Under the pieces are notes generated by a model. That model did not search any database. It was given only the letters and a program-made list of their open reading frames with translations, and had not been told where the DNA came from. A stretch of 64,000 nt of DNA from Polynucleobacter parvulilacunae (GTDB taxonomy: Bacteria; Pseudomonadota; Gammaproteobacteria; Burkholderiales; Burkholderiaceae): assembly GCF_018881715.1 (NCBI RefSeq), contig NZ_JACVPW010000013.1:1-64000 (forward strand). The letters run 5' to 3'. The stretch's first letter is position 1; each line of letters opens with the position of its first letter. This document shows, piece by piece, positions 16,332-20,541 of this stretch. The position numbers and the translations under genes were made by a program.

Positions 16332-16348
16332 TGCACTAATATGGTGCA
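16332..16348. promoter_or_regulatory. NtrC-type binding site upstream of glnA
   Basis: TGCACTAATATGGTGCA, close to the NtrC consensus TGCACC-N5-GGTGCA. Confidence 0.7.
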
Positions 16349-16383: not shown

Positions 16384-16400
16384 GGCACTTAAACAGTGCA
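16384..16400. promoter_or_regulatory. Second, weaker NtrC-like half-palindrome
   Basis: GGCACTTAAACAGTGCA (GCACT-TAAAC-AGTGC). Confidence 0.45.
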
Positions 16401-16449
16401 ATAATGGCAGTTCCCATTTGTTTGCTTCAGTAAATTACATACATCCATT

Positions 16450-16465
16450 AGGCATGTTTGATGCC
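16450..16465 (+). promoter_or_regulatory. Possible sigma54-like -24/-12 element (also a perfect inverted repeat)
   Basis: aGGCAtGtttgatGCc has GG/GC at the spacing of TGGCACGNNNNTTGCW; also reads AGGCAT-gtttg-ATGCCT. Confidence 0.35.
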
Positions 16466-16529
16466 TGGAATAAACAAGGGTGTATGCCTTGAGTTTTGAT
16501 TCCGAATTTAGTTAATAGAGGAGATTTGC

Positions 16530-17945
16530 ATGACGAAGACCGTCGCTGATGTGATGAAGTTAGTTAAAGAGAAAGAATGTACTTTCGTTGATTTCCGCTT
16601 TGTAGATACAAAGGGTAAAGAACAGCACACGACAGTTCCTATCTCTGCTTTTGACGAAGATAAATTTGAGAGCGGTCATGCATTTGACGGCTCTTCTATT
16701 GCTGGATGGAAGGGTATTGAAGCTTCTGACATGTTGCTCAGACCAGATCCAACGGCTGCTTATATCGATCCATTCTATGAAGAGCCAACATTAGTGTTGA
16801 CTTGTGACGTAATCGAGCCAGCAGATGGCAAAGGTTACGATCGTGACCCACGTTCTATCGCAAAGCGCGCAGAAGCGTATTTGAAGAGCACAGGCTTGGG
16901 TGATACAGCTTACTTTGGTCCAGAGCCAGAATTCTTTATTTTTGACGGCGTTCGTTGGGGTGCTGACATGCAGGGTTGCTTCGTGAAGATTGATTCCGAA
17001 GAGGCTCCATGGTCTTCAGCTGCTGAAATCGAAGGTGGTAACACTGGTCACCGTCCAGGTAAAAAAGGTGGCTACTTCCCAGTTGCTCCAGTAGATACAT
17101 TCCAAGACATGCGTTCTGAAATGTGTTTGATTCTCGAATCACTGGGCATTCCAGTTGAAGTTCATCACCATGAAGTTGCTGGTCAAGGCCAAAACGAATT
17201 GGGTACAAAGTTCAGCACATTGGTACAGCGCGCTGACTGGACTATCTGGCAGAAATATGTTGTTCAAAACGTAGCCCACGCTTACGGCAAGACAGCAACA
17301 TTTATGCCTAAGCCAGTAGTTGGCGATAACGGTTCTGGTATGCACGTTCACCAATCTATTTGGAAGAACGGTGAGAACTTGTTTGCTGGTAACGGCTATG
17401 CAGGTTTGTCAGAGTTCGCATTGTTTTACATCGGCGGCATCATCAAGCACGCTAAAGCATTAAATGCGATTACTAACCCAGGTACAAACTCATACAAGCG
17501 TTTGGTTCCAGGCTTTGAGGCTCCAGTGAAGTTGGCCTACTCTGCACGTAACCGTTCTGCTTCGATTCGTATTCCACACGTTCCGAATCCTAAGGGTCGT
17601 CGTATTGAAACTCGTTTCCCAGATCCATTGGCTAACCCATACCTCTGCTTCTCAGCATTGATGATGGCTGGTTTGGACGGTGTTCAGAATAAGATTCATC
17701 CAGGCGAAGCTGCTGACAAGAACTTGTATGACTTGCCACCAGAAGAAGATGCAAAGATCCCAACCGTTTGCGCGAGCTTGGAAGAGGCATTGGACGCATT
17801 GAAGAAGGATCACGAGTTCTTGACTCGCGGTGGTGTATTCACTGAATCCATGATTGATGCATATATCAATTTGAAGATGGAAGATGTCACACGTTTCCGT
17901 ATGACAACTCACCCAATCGAATTTGATATGTACTACTCCCTGTAA
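16530..17945 (+). CDS. glnA: Type I glutamine synthetase
   Basis: 471 aa; [19 protein letters not shown] adenylylation-site motif. Confidence 0.97.
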
Positions 17946-17959
17946 GCGAAGGAGAGAAC

Positions 17960-19093
17960 TTGAGCGCAGGTCTGTTGCGCAATTCGTTCAAGGGAGCAGC
18001 TTCGGCTGCTCCTTTTTTTCCGACATTGCTTGATCAGATGCCCAATGCCATCGTGGTATTCGAGGCTGAGAACCAACAATTGGTGTACGTGAACCCAGCA
18101 GCTGAGTCAGCGCTGGATCTCTCACGTAAATCACTTGAGGGTCAATCTGTGCATCATTTATTCGGCGATAACCTTGCATTGAACGACATGATTTCTGAAG
18201 TGAAGTTGGGGCACGTGCTCGCGCAACGCCAAGAAATGGTTTTACATTCACTGCCGAGCAGCATTCATCAAGATTCCATTCCTGCGCACGTAGTGGTGGC
18301 CGCCTTAGATGATCCTGCTTTGATCATGATGGAGTGGTTCCCGATCGATCAACAGTTGCGTAGTGAGCGCGACGAGCGCGTGACGCAACAAGTAGAGGCT
18401 AATAAGCAGTTGATGCGCAATTTGGCGCATGAGATTAAAAACCCCTTGGGTGGTATTCGTGGGGCAGCTCAGTTATTAGAATTCGAGTTGCCAGATAAAG
18501 GTCTGCGTGAGTATACGCAGGTCATTATTAAAGAATCTGATCGCTTACAGACCTTGGTGGACCGTCTGTTGGCGCCGCACCGCAAAGCGCATGTGATGGA
18601 GTCCTTTAATGTGCACGAGGCGCTAGAGCGCGTGCGCAGCTTGGTCTTGGCTGAGTTCCCGAAAGGCCTACGAATTATTCGTAACTACGATACAAGTCTG
18701 CCCGATGTTTTGGGTGACCGTGAGCAGTTAATCCAAGCAACCTTAAATATTGTTCATAACGCAGCACAAGCACTCTCTGAAGAGATTAGCACCGGTGTTG
18801 CGCAAATTGAGTTAAAGACCCGAGTAGCGCGTTCTGTCACGATTGCAAAGCATCGCTACAAATTAGCAATGGACCTGCATGTGATTGATAACGGCCCGGG
18901 CATTCCAGAAGAAATTATTGAGCGCATCTTCTTCCCATTGGTTTCGGGTAGAGAGGGAGGTAGCGGGCTTGGTCTTACCTTAGCGCAAACCTTTGTTCAG
19001 CAACACCAGGGATTTATTGCTTGCAATAGTCGTCCTGGACGCACCGATTTTCATATTCAAATTCCATACCGTAGGCAGGAGAAAGCATCATGA
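17960..19093 (+). CDS. ntrB: Nitrogen regulation sensor histidine kinase NtrB
   Basis: PAS plus NLAHEIKNPLGGIRGAAQLLE H-box; DNGPGIPEE. TTG start preceded by AAGGAG (17949-17954). Confidence 0.93.
   Translation: MSAGLLRNSFKGAASAAPFFPTLLDQMPNAIVVFEAENQQLVYVNPAAESALDLSRKSLEGQSVHHLFGDNLALNDMISEVKLGHVLAQRQEMVLHSLPSSIHQDSIPAHVVVAALDDPALIMMEWFPIDQQLRSERDERVTQQVEANKQLMRNLAHEIKNPLGGIRGAAQLLEFELPDKGLREYTQVIIKESDRLQTLVDRLLAPHRKAHVMESFNVHEALERVRSLVLAEFPKGLRIIRNYDTSLPDVLGDREQLIQATLNIVHNAAQALSEEISTGVAQIELKTRVARSVTIAKHRYKLAMDLHVIDNGPGIPEEIIERIFFPLVSGREGGSGLGLTLAQTFVQQHQGFIACNSRPGRTDFHIQIPYRRQEKAS
17993..18019 (+). terminator. Strong intrinsic terminator inside the 5' end of ntrB
   Basis: GGAGCAGC-TTCG-GCTGCTCC-TTTTTTT: perfect 8-bp stem, cUUCGg tetraloop, T7 tract. 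Confidence 0.85.
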
Positions 19094-20541
19094 AACCAAT
19101 TTGGATCGTTGACGATGACCAATCCATTCGTTGGGTCTTGGAAAAAGCCTTATCGCGTGAGAATATTCCGCATAAGAGCTTCTCCAATCCTAATGATGTA
19201 CTCAATGCATTAGAAAAAGAATCTCCTCAGGTATTGATCTCTGATATTCGTATGCCACGTGGGAACGGTTTAGATTTATTGCAGCACGTCAAAGCGAGCC
19301 ATCCAAATTTACCAGTCATCATCATGACTGCGTATTCGGATTTGGATTCAGCTGTCTCCTCATTTCAAGGGGGCGCCTTTGAGTACCTCACAAAACCGTT
19401 TGATGTGGAAAAAGCCGTTGAGCTCATTCATCGTGCGGTTGAGCAGGGTATTCGCAATGACTCCGGCGCTAAAGAGTTAACTGCTTGGAGGCAGGATGCC
19501 ACCGAGATCATTGGTCAAGCTCCGGCAATGCAAGAGATCTTCCGTGCGATTGGTCGTTTGGCGCAATCTAATGCCACAGTACTCATTACTGGAGAGTCCG
19601 GTACTGGCAAGGAATTAGTTGCCCACGCACTGCATAAGCACAGCCCTTGCGCCAAAGGCCCCTTTGTGTCTTTGAGCACTTCCGCAGTGCCTAAAGATTT
19701 GCTGGAATCAGAGTTATTTGGCCATGAGCGTGGTGCATTTCCTGGCGCACAGACCTTGCGTCGTGGGCGCTTTGAGCAGGCTGATGGTGGCACTCTATTT
19801 CTGGGTGAAGTTGGTGACTTACCATTTGATTTGCAAACACGTTTGCTGCGGGTGCTAGCTGATGGTCACTTCTACCGTATCGGTGGCCAAGACCCCATTA
19901 AAGCAAACGTTCGCATTATTGCTTCAACCCATCAAAATCTGGATGCGAGAGTCGCTGCTGGATTCTTCCGCGAAGACTTGTTGCATCGTTTAAACGTGAT
20001 TCGTTTGCGCATGCCTTCATTGCGCGAGCGCAGTGAAGATATTCCAATGCTGGCAAGACATTTCATGCTCAGCTGCGCTAAATCATTGGGCGTAGATCCT
20101 AAAAAGCTTTCTGATGAAGTGCTGAAAGAGATCAGCGCAATGCCATTCCCTGGGAATGTTCGCCAGTTGGAGAACTTGTGTCACTGGTTAACGGTGATGA
20201 CGCCAGCTAATGTGATTGGCGCGAGTGATCTCCCTGCCGATATCGTTTCAGAAGCCGGCGAACAGCCCGTTATCATTCATGGTGAGTCTTCACCAAGCAA
20301 CCCTGCTGCAAGCAAAGTCGCTACTGGTGATTGGGAGAGCGCTTTGGGGCGCTTAGCTGTGAAGATGTTGCAGGATGGTGATAAAGAGGTATTCGATGCC
20401 TTGACTGCGCGCTTTGAAAAAGCAGTTCTTCAAGCGGCTTTAGAGGTAACGCGCGGTAGAAGGGTTGAGGCTGCACAACGCCTTGGTATTGGCCGCAATA
20501 CGATTACCCGGAAGTTGCAAGAATTGGGAATTGATGACTGA
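19090..20541 (+). CDS. ntrC: NtrC-family response regulator with altered sigma54-activation motifs
   Basis: Receiver (VLISDIRMPRGNG), AAA+ (GESGTGKE), Fis-type HTH (GRRVEAAQRLGIGRNTITRKLQEL). GAFPGA in place of GAFTGA and LFLGEVGD in place of LFLDEIGD. Confidence 0.92.
   Translation: MKPIWIVDDDQSIRWVLEKALSRENIPHKSFSNPNDVLNALEKESPQVLISDIRMPRGNGLDLLQHVKASHPNLPVIIMTAYSDLDSAVSSFQGGAFEYLTKPFDVEKAVELIHRAVEQGIRNDSGAKELTAWRQDATEIIGQAPAMQEIFRAIGRLAQSNATVLITGESGTGKELVAHALHKHSPCAKGPFVSLSTSAVPKDLLESELFGHERGAFPGAQTLRRGRFEQADGGTLFLGEVGDLPFDLQTRLLRVLADGHFYRIGGQDPIKANVRIIASTHQNLDARVAAGFFREDLLHRLNVIRLRMPSLRERSEDIPMLARHFMLSCAKSLGVDPKKLSDEVLKEISAMPFPGNVRQLENLCHWLTVMTPANVIGASDLPADIVSEAGEQPVIIHGESSPSNPAASKVATGDWESALGRLAVKMLQDGDKEVFDALTARFEKAVLQAALEVTRGRRVEAAQRLGIGRNTITRKLQELGIDD

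Follow-up and report, generated by a model that had tools for sequence, protein, structure and literature searches.

Activation of sigma54 is classically illustrated by NtrC. The copy encoded in the stretch of DNA analysed here (the window, 64,000 nucleotides), which comes from a Polynucleobacter genome of 2.07 Mb rated 100% complete, has GAFPGA in place of GAFTGA and Gly-Glu in place of the Walker B Asp-Glu, which raises the question of which RNA polymerase it now serves. The answer bears on how a regulator changes its sigma factor and on whether an NtrC without GAFTGA needs ATP hydrolysis, to which the work on Rhodobacter capsulatus is reported to answer no and that on Caulobacter implies yes. 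A search of open full text, with subscription journals outside its reach, returned no papers devoted to Polynucleobacter NtrC or rpoN, at most passing references to them.

The ntrC locus and its altered motifs

The window carries the gene order glnA-ntrB-ntrC (Table 1), and the receiver, AAA+, lid and Fis-type HTH domains of NtrC score far above the Pfam cut-offs. Its domains and its ntrB/glnA context make the protein by descent a group 1 bacterial enhancer-binding protein; the nearest named record in the genome scan is from P. yangtzensis (97% identical). The first-pass annotation had reported the GAFPGA and Gly-Glu motifs, both of which are present as read and prove to be clade states within Polynucleobacter, and had described the receiver, Walker A and HTH as intact and the gene as not simply decayed. 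This description agrees with the Pfam scores, with low dN/dS and with the invariance of key residues (receiver Asp52, Thr80 and Lys102, and Walker A Lys174 in all groups). A third change, absent from that annotation, lies at the glutamate switch, where Asn196 is replaced by Ser; the position was equated by its place in the motif with Asn64 of PspF, which forms the switch together with E108 (PMC4132715). The GAFTGA threonine of PspF is T86, and the T86A variant cannot engage the sigma54 closed complex (PMC4132715). Of the features of a functional sigma54 activator, the protein thus has neither GAFTGA nor the Walker B Asp-Glu with a switch Asn, while the loss of GAFTGA with retention of Walker A is the combination of the R. 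capsulatus type.

Table 1. Features of the glnA-ntrB-ntrC region in the window
Feature	Positions	Strand	Remarks
NtrC-like palindrome I, TGCACTAATATGGTGCA	16332..16348	+	one of only four exact TGCACN7GTGCA in the genome
NtrC-like palindrome II, GGCACTTAAACAGTGCA	16384..16400	+	52 bp from palindrome I
-10-like hexamer TAAATT	16431..16436	+	30 bp past the end of palindrome II; no -35
Relic sigma54 -24/-12 element, AGGCATGTTTGATGCC	16450..16465	+	TGGCATGCTTTGTGCA in basal GAFTGA genomes
glnA, glutamine synthetase	16530..17945	+	ends 14 bp upstream of ntrB
ntrB, sensor kinase	17960..19093	+	PAS, HisKA and HATPase_c domains; 4-bp overlap with ntrC
ntrC	19090..20541	+	intact single ORF, 483 aa; receiver (phospho-Asp52 kept), AAA+, lid, Fis-type HTH
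Glutamate-switch position, Ser196 replacing canonical Asn	19675..19677	+	Ser in 61/61 Gly-Glu genomes
L1 loop GAFPGA	19732..19749	+	Pro218 (codon CCT, 19741-19743) for the sigma54-contacting Thr
Walker B Gly239-Glu240, canonical Asp-Glu	19804..19809	+	Gly GGT 19804-19806, Glu 19807-19809; context GGTLFLGEVGD

Order of the changes across the genus

NtrC sequences from about 150 Polynucleobacter genomes and from related genera were aligned. Basal Polynucleobacter lineages have GAFTGA, the switch Asn and Walker B Asp-Glu. The NtrC tree places the loss of GAFTGA at the base of a clade of 121 genomes, nearly all of which have Pro in place of Thr, with a minority carrying Q, S, A, N, L or the form AQFGNT; a separate lineage of eight genomes has ANA, INA or PNA forms instead of GAFTGA. 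The Walker B Asp-to-Gly replacement maps once on the tree, at the root of a subclade of 62 genomes in which it is fixed apart from one member with Asn. Every one of the 61 Gly-Glu genomes has Ser at the switch; the 21 GAFTGA genomes and the six outgroups without exception have Asn, and five Pro218 genomes retain the Asn; on the tree the order of events is T218P, N196S and then D239G. In four Gly-Glu genomes the second Arg finger is gone as well (HRLN to HSLN). Receiver Asp52, the Walker A Lys, the sensor II Arg and the Walker B Glu (one exception, G390) do not change in the alignment, and neither does the recognition helix GRNTITRKL. Because the changed motif states are clade-wide, they are ruled out as a sequencing error or the mutation of a single strain. 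The earlier proposal that NtrC was rewired in this lineage is supported, with the correction that a whole clade is affected, stepwise, and that the Walker B change came last. In G248, G319 and G398 (L244, L245 and L251) the L1 loop reads GNERAQFGNT, so that GAFTGA is wholly rewritten with no residue deleted; these genomes, too, lack rpoN.

Promoters of glnA and amtB

The two palindromes upstream of glnA are presumed to be NtrC-like from their resemblance to the enteric NtrC consensus. Basal GAFTGA genomes combine such palindromes with TGGCATGCTTTGTGCA; another group with GAFTGA, the sister of the Pro clade, retains the sigma54 element at porin-glnK-amtB but no longer at glnA; and the Pro clade has the relic AGGCATGTTTGATGCC, with the GG and GC of -24/-12 still at the correct spacing. 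Upstream of porin-glnK-amtB, a sigma54 element scoring 20.5-21.5 of 21.5 accompanies NtrC palindromes in 7/7 GAFTGA genomes, whereas the score is at most 18 in 13/13 non-GAFTGA genomes (Fisher P about 1e-5 for the 7 + 13 genomes), most of which keep two NtrC-like palindromes there. With this element absent and that of glnA a relic, the -24/-12 promoters of a sigma54 activator are missing. All groups lack a sigma54 element close to the NtrC site of the second amtB gene (amtB2).

A different arrangement is shared by glnA and amtB2. At amtB2 the distance from the end of the palindrome to CATAAT or GATAAT downstream is, in most genomes, exactly 30 bp; this rule was noticed there in four genomes before the others were tested. 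With the proximal palindrome chosen by a hand rule, and in related genomes whose counts are not independent, the distance from palindrome to -10-like hexamer is 30-31 bp in 52/52 cases at glnA (background 0.04) and 16/16 at amtB2 (background 0.11). The glnA hexamers at 30 or 31 bp, found in every lineage, are TAAAAT, TACAAT, TACAGT, TAAAGT, TAAATT, TACATT and TTTAAT; GAFTGA genomes share the arrangement, and no -35 element was found at the glnA and amtB2 promoters that follow the rule. The hexamer at +30 of porin-glnK-amtB (TAATTA and similar) is a poor -10. In other Burkholderiales 0/64 sites obey the rule, a weak control given their higher G+C. From this promoter anatomy we infer binding of NtrC to these palindromes and a sigma70 -10 element in the hexamer, with NtrC probably acting there as an activator of sigma70 promoters.

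The same sites could make NtrC a repressor or anti-activator of sigma70 promoters, in the manner of TyrR or of the enteric glnAp1 site: palindrome II abuts another -10-like hexamer, AATAAT (offset -1), in a position that would block a promoter, and pure repression would be consistent with a lost sigma54 machinery. We consider this unlikely, given that the site which both glnA and amtB2 hold at a fixed spacing has its centre some 39 bp before the first base of the hexamer, outside the core promoter, that promoters without a -35 are as expected of activator dependence, and that the receiver phosphorylation site is invariant. It is more doubtful still that the palindromes 30 bp from the hexamer serve a different transcription factor, with the targets of NtrC lying elsewhere. 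They were defined by likeness to the enteric consensus, but the same palindrome accompanies the sigma54 promoters of GAFTGA genomes, the recognition helix is unchanged and, of the four exact TGCACN7GTGCA copies genome-wide, one precedes glnA and one amtB2.

Another of the four exact NtrC-like palindromes in the genome (L428:1501-1517) precedes a gene that resembles a circularly permuted ATP-grasp protein and is a possible further target of NtrC. The glnA leader (16407-16529 and homologues) shows much stronger conservation, as in TTTGCTTCAGTAAATTA and GGCATRTTTGRTGCCTGGAAT, than the sequence that precedes it, and a -10 does not account for all of this. A riboswitch in the leader was rejected: an apparent three-way fold seen in four near-identical sequences showed no covariation and was lost over 23 sequences, the predicted structure of the leader RNA did not beat shuffles (z -0.81), and Rfam gave no credible match.

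Loss of rpoN

Searches of the host genome with two rpoN Pfam families gave no match, and control families matched. The ancestral order lptB-rpoN-hpf was found in five GAFTGA genomes; in the host lptB and hpf adjoin across a gap of about 190 bp that is empty of rpoN. None of the non-GAFTGA genus genomes examined has an intact rpoN in this slot, and fragments of the gene remain there in G395 (GAFAGA) and G339 (GAFTGA). NtrC is the only enhancer-binding protein of the host, just as the sampled rpoN-negative genomes each have exactly one protein of the sigma54-activator type, NtrC. The loss of rpoN, raised only as a possibility in the first-pass annotation, is hence confirmed, and the sigma factor on which a functional sigma54 activator depends is missing.

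Among the 150 typed genus genomes, rpoN is present in 21/21 with GAFTGA (or GSFTGA) and in 33/129 without, and for the latter reason rpoN alone is ruled out as a predictor of the motif. In the rpoN-positive, non-GAFTGA genomes examined, the gene lies outside the ancestral slot, in what appears to be a motility/bactofilin/CheW-like island (ten genomes), a flagellar cluster (G425) or another island (G356). Each rpoN comes with one extra activator (two extra in G170), carrying GSFTGA or GAFTGA wherever the motif is readable. Since each accessory rpoN has its own activator, sigma54 modules and NtrC look separate, and possession of rpoN is not decisive by itself. The suggested tie between the NtrC change and rpoN loss accordingly holds for the host, but some GAFPGA genomes do carry an rpoN, a separate copy in the cases examined.

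It is very improbable that NtrC still activates sigma54 holoenzyme, with GAFPGA and Gly-Glu tolerated and rpoN either missed or accessory. The 33 rpoN-bearing genomes and the correctly spaced GG and GC of the glnA relic would fit this possibility; the negative Pfam searches with their positive controls, the empty slot, the missing porin-glnK-amtB element in 13/13 non-GAFTGA genomes and the failure of PspF T86A at the closed complex (PMC4132715) all oppose it.

Selection on NtrC

The dN/dS ratios within the Gly-Glu clade are 0.014 (receiver), 0.015 (AAA+ domain) and 0.018 (HTH), so that the AAA+ domain is as constrained as in a working regulator. Pro218 is encoded by CCT, CCA, CCG and CCC in 24, 20, 15 and 1 genomes and Gly239 by GGT, GGC, GGA and GGG in 51, 7, 2 and 1, respectively; both residues were kept through many synonymous changes and are thus under selection. 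That NtrC is a fading gene of little function in a streamlined genome, as its breakage in G260 and G084, an internal stop in G326 and the failure to find it in G329 might suggest, is hardly credible, because a near-zero AAA+ dN/dS, the result that would refute decay, was found, the low ratio extends to all three domains, Pro is conserved in 60/61 genomes over four codons and the ORF is intact almost throughout; simple decay is ruled out by dN/dS and codon usage. The regulator can nonetheless be lost entirely, since a few Polynucleobacter genomes carry ntrC as a pseudogene or interrupted (L270, L273 and L186) or lack it (G329).

A proposed path from sigma54 to sigma70

Strong selection, together with a fixed distance from ordinary promoters, makes the housekeeping RNA polymerase the most likely present target of NtrC. 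Taken as a whole, we regard it as probable that NtrC is a phosphorylation-controlled activator of sigma70 promoters; the earlier suggestion of a sigma54-independent NtrC accompanying rpoN loss is supported. The genus ancestor probably had two modes, a sigma54 mode at glnA and porin-glnK-amtB and a proximal mode at glnA and the second amtB. As the spacing arrangement is also found in rpoN-positive GAFTGA genomes, the proximal mode would predate rpoN loss. In the lineage to the host, the sigma54 promoters and the chromosomal rpoN were lost, which would leave the sigma70-type mode alone. With sigma54 gone, the parts that served only its remodelling (loop, switch and Walker B Asp) would be free to change, and on the NtrC tree the replacements run from the GAFTGA Thr (to Pro) through the switch Asn (to Ser) to the Walker B Asp (to Gly).

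In the resulting system, NtrB would phosphorylate NtrC, which would assemble at the proximal palindrome, the centre of which lies about 51 bp before the expected start, and help RNA polymerase with the housekeeping sigma factor at a promoter without a -35. The AAA+ domain would be kept for ATP binding and assembly, not for remodelling: retention of Walker A implies that ATP binding is probably still needed, and ATP may be bound without turnover. On balance, we lean towards the further view that the genus preserves successive stages from a dual-mode NtrC to a pure sigma70 activator, with the promoters beginning to change first, then the loss of rpoN and the dismantling of the AAA+ motor last, and that the end state is a naturally occurring Walker B mutant in which strict conservation still holds the AAA+ domain as a nucleotide-gated scaffold. 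Intermediates are extant in the genus (GAFTGA together with sigma54 promoters; GAFTGA after loss of the sigma54 promoter at glnA; GAFPGA with Asp-Glu; GAFPGA with Gly-Glu) and permit direct tests of the order and the need of each part, and the spacing amounts to a specific rule for sigma70-type promoters on which NtrC would act, in a bacterium that is abundant in fresh water.

Comparison with known systems

The closest known case, which Polynucleobacter NtrC appears to resemble, is that of R. capsulatus. NtrC of R. capsulatus uses distant tandem sites, in contrast to the single palindrome at a fixed proximal distance in Polynucleobacter. Its L1 loop is deleted, whereas the Polynucleobacter loop is of full length, with Thr-to-Pro, Asn-to-Ser and Asp-to-Gly replacements in the protein; and as R. 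capsulatus belongs to a different class of Proteobacteria, the two would be of independent origin. Both are NtrC orthologues without a working GAFTGA, and that of R. capsulatus is reported to act with sigma70, in a manner that, in the account of Bowman and Kranz 1998 given in PMC10274813, needs ATP binding and not hydrolysis. If hydrolysis is not required, a Walker B change would be tolerated.

Caulobacter NtrC likewise lacks GAFTGA, controls glnBA and acts at sigma70 promoters, but has an eight-residue L1 deletion, in a genome that encodes the GAFTGA proteins FlbD and TacA (PMC10274813). Its Walker B Asp235Ala substitution abolishes growth on ammonium (PMC10274813), so hydrolysis is not dispensable for every GAFTGA-less NtrC; the residue that Caulobacter needs on ammonium is the one that the Polynucleobacter clade has lost. 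The canonical NtrC of Ralstonia, Cupriavidus and basal Polynucleobacter shares its domains and its glnA-ntrB-ntrC context with the host protein, of which it is an orthologue, and differs in its intact GAFTGA, switch Asn and Walker B Asp and in the sigma54 promoters at glnA. Basal Polynucleobacter with canonical NtrC have rpoN, unlike the host. TyrR, as well as VpsR and VspR of Vibrio cholerae, are relatives of enhancer-binding proteins that lack GAFTGA and act at sigma70 promoters, but are paralogues with other inputs, not members of the NtrB-NtrC nitrogen pair. VspR works without ATP (PMC10274813).

Accessory sigma54 modules

In L284-L296 (for example L284:6092-7477), accessory rpoN genes stand in motility-type islands, with bactofilin-like, CheW-like and flagellar genes and a dedicated GSFTGA or GAFTGA activator; the names given to island genes (bactofilin-, CheW-, cyanase- and NifA-like) are our own reading of the sequences. 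It is as if sigma54 had been turned into a movable module for surface functions. Island rpoN also occurs in two GAFTGA genomes (G339 and G342), and in the rpoN tree, whose deep nodes are weak, the lptB-slot copy of G182 groups with the island copies. Two genomes of related genera without detected rpoN, G022 (L272; 97% complete) with GAFTGA and G021 (L271) with GAFSGA, represent either an exception or a recent loss of rpoN. In G170 (L287:2236-7504), a second accessory rpoN lies by a putative NifA-like activator with GAFTGA, a cyanase-like gene and predicted ABC transporter genes.
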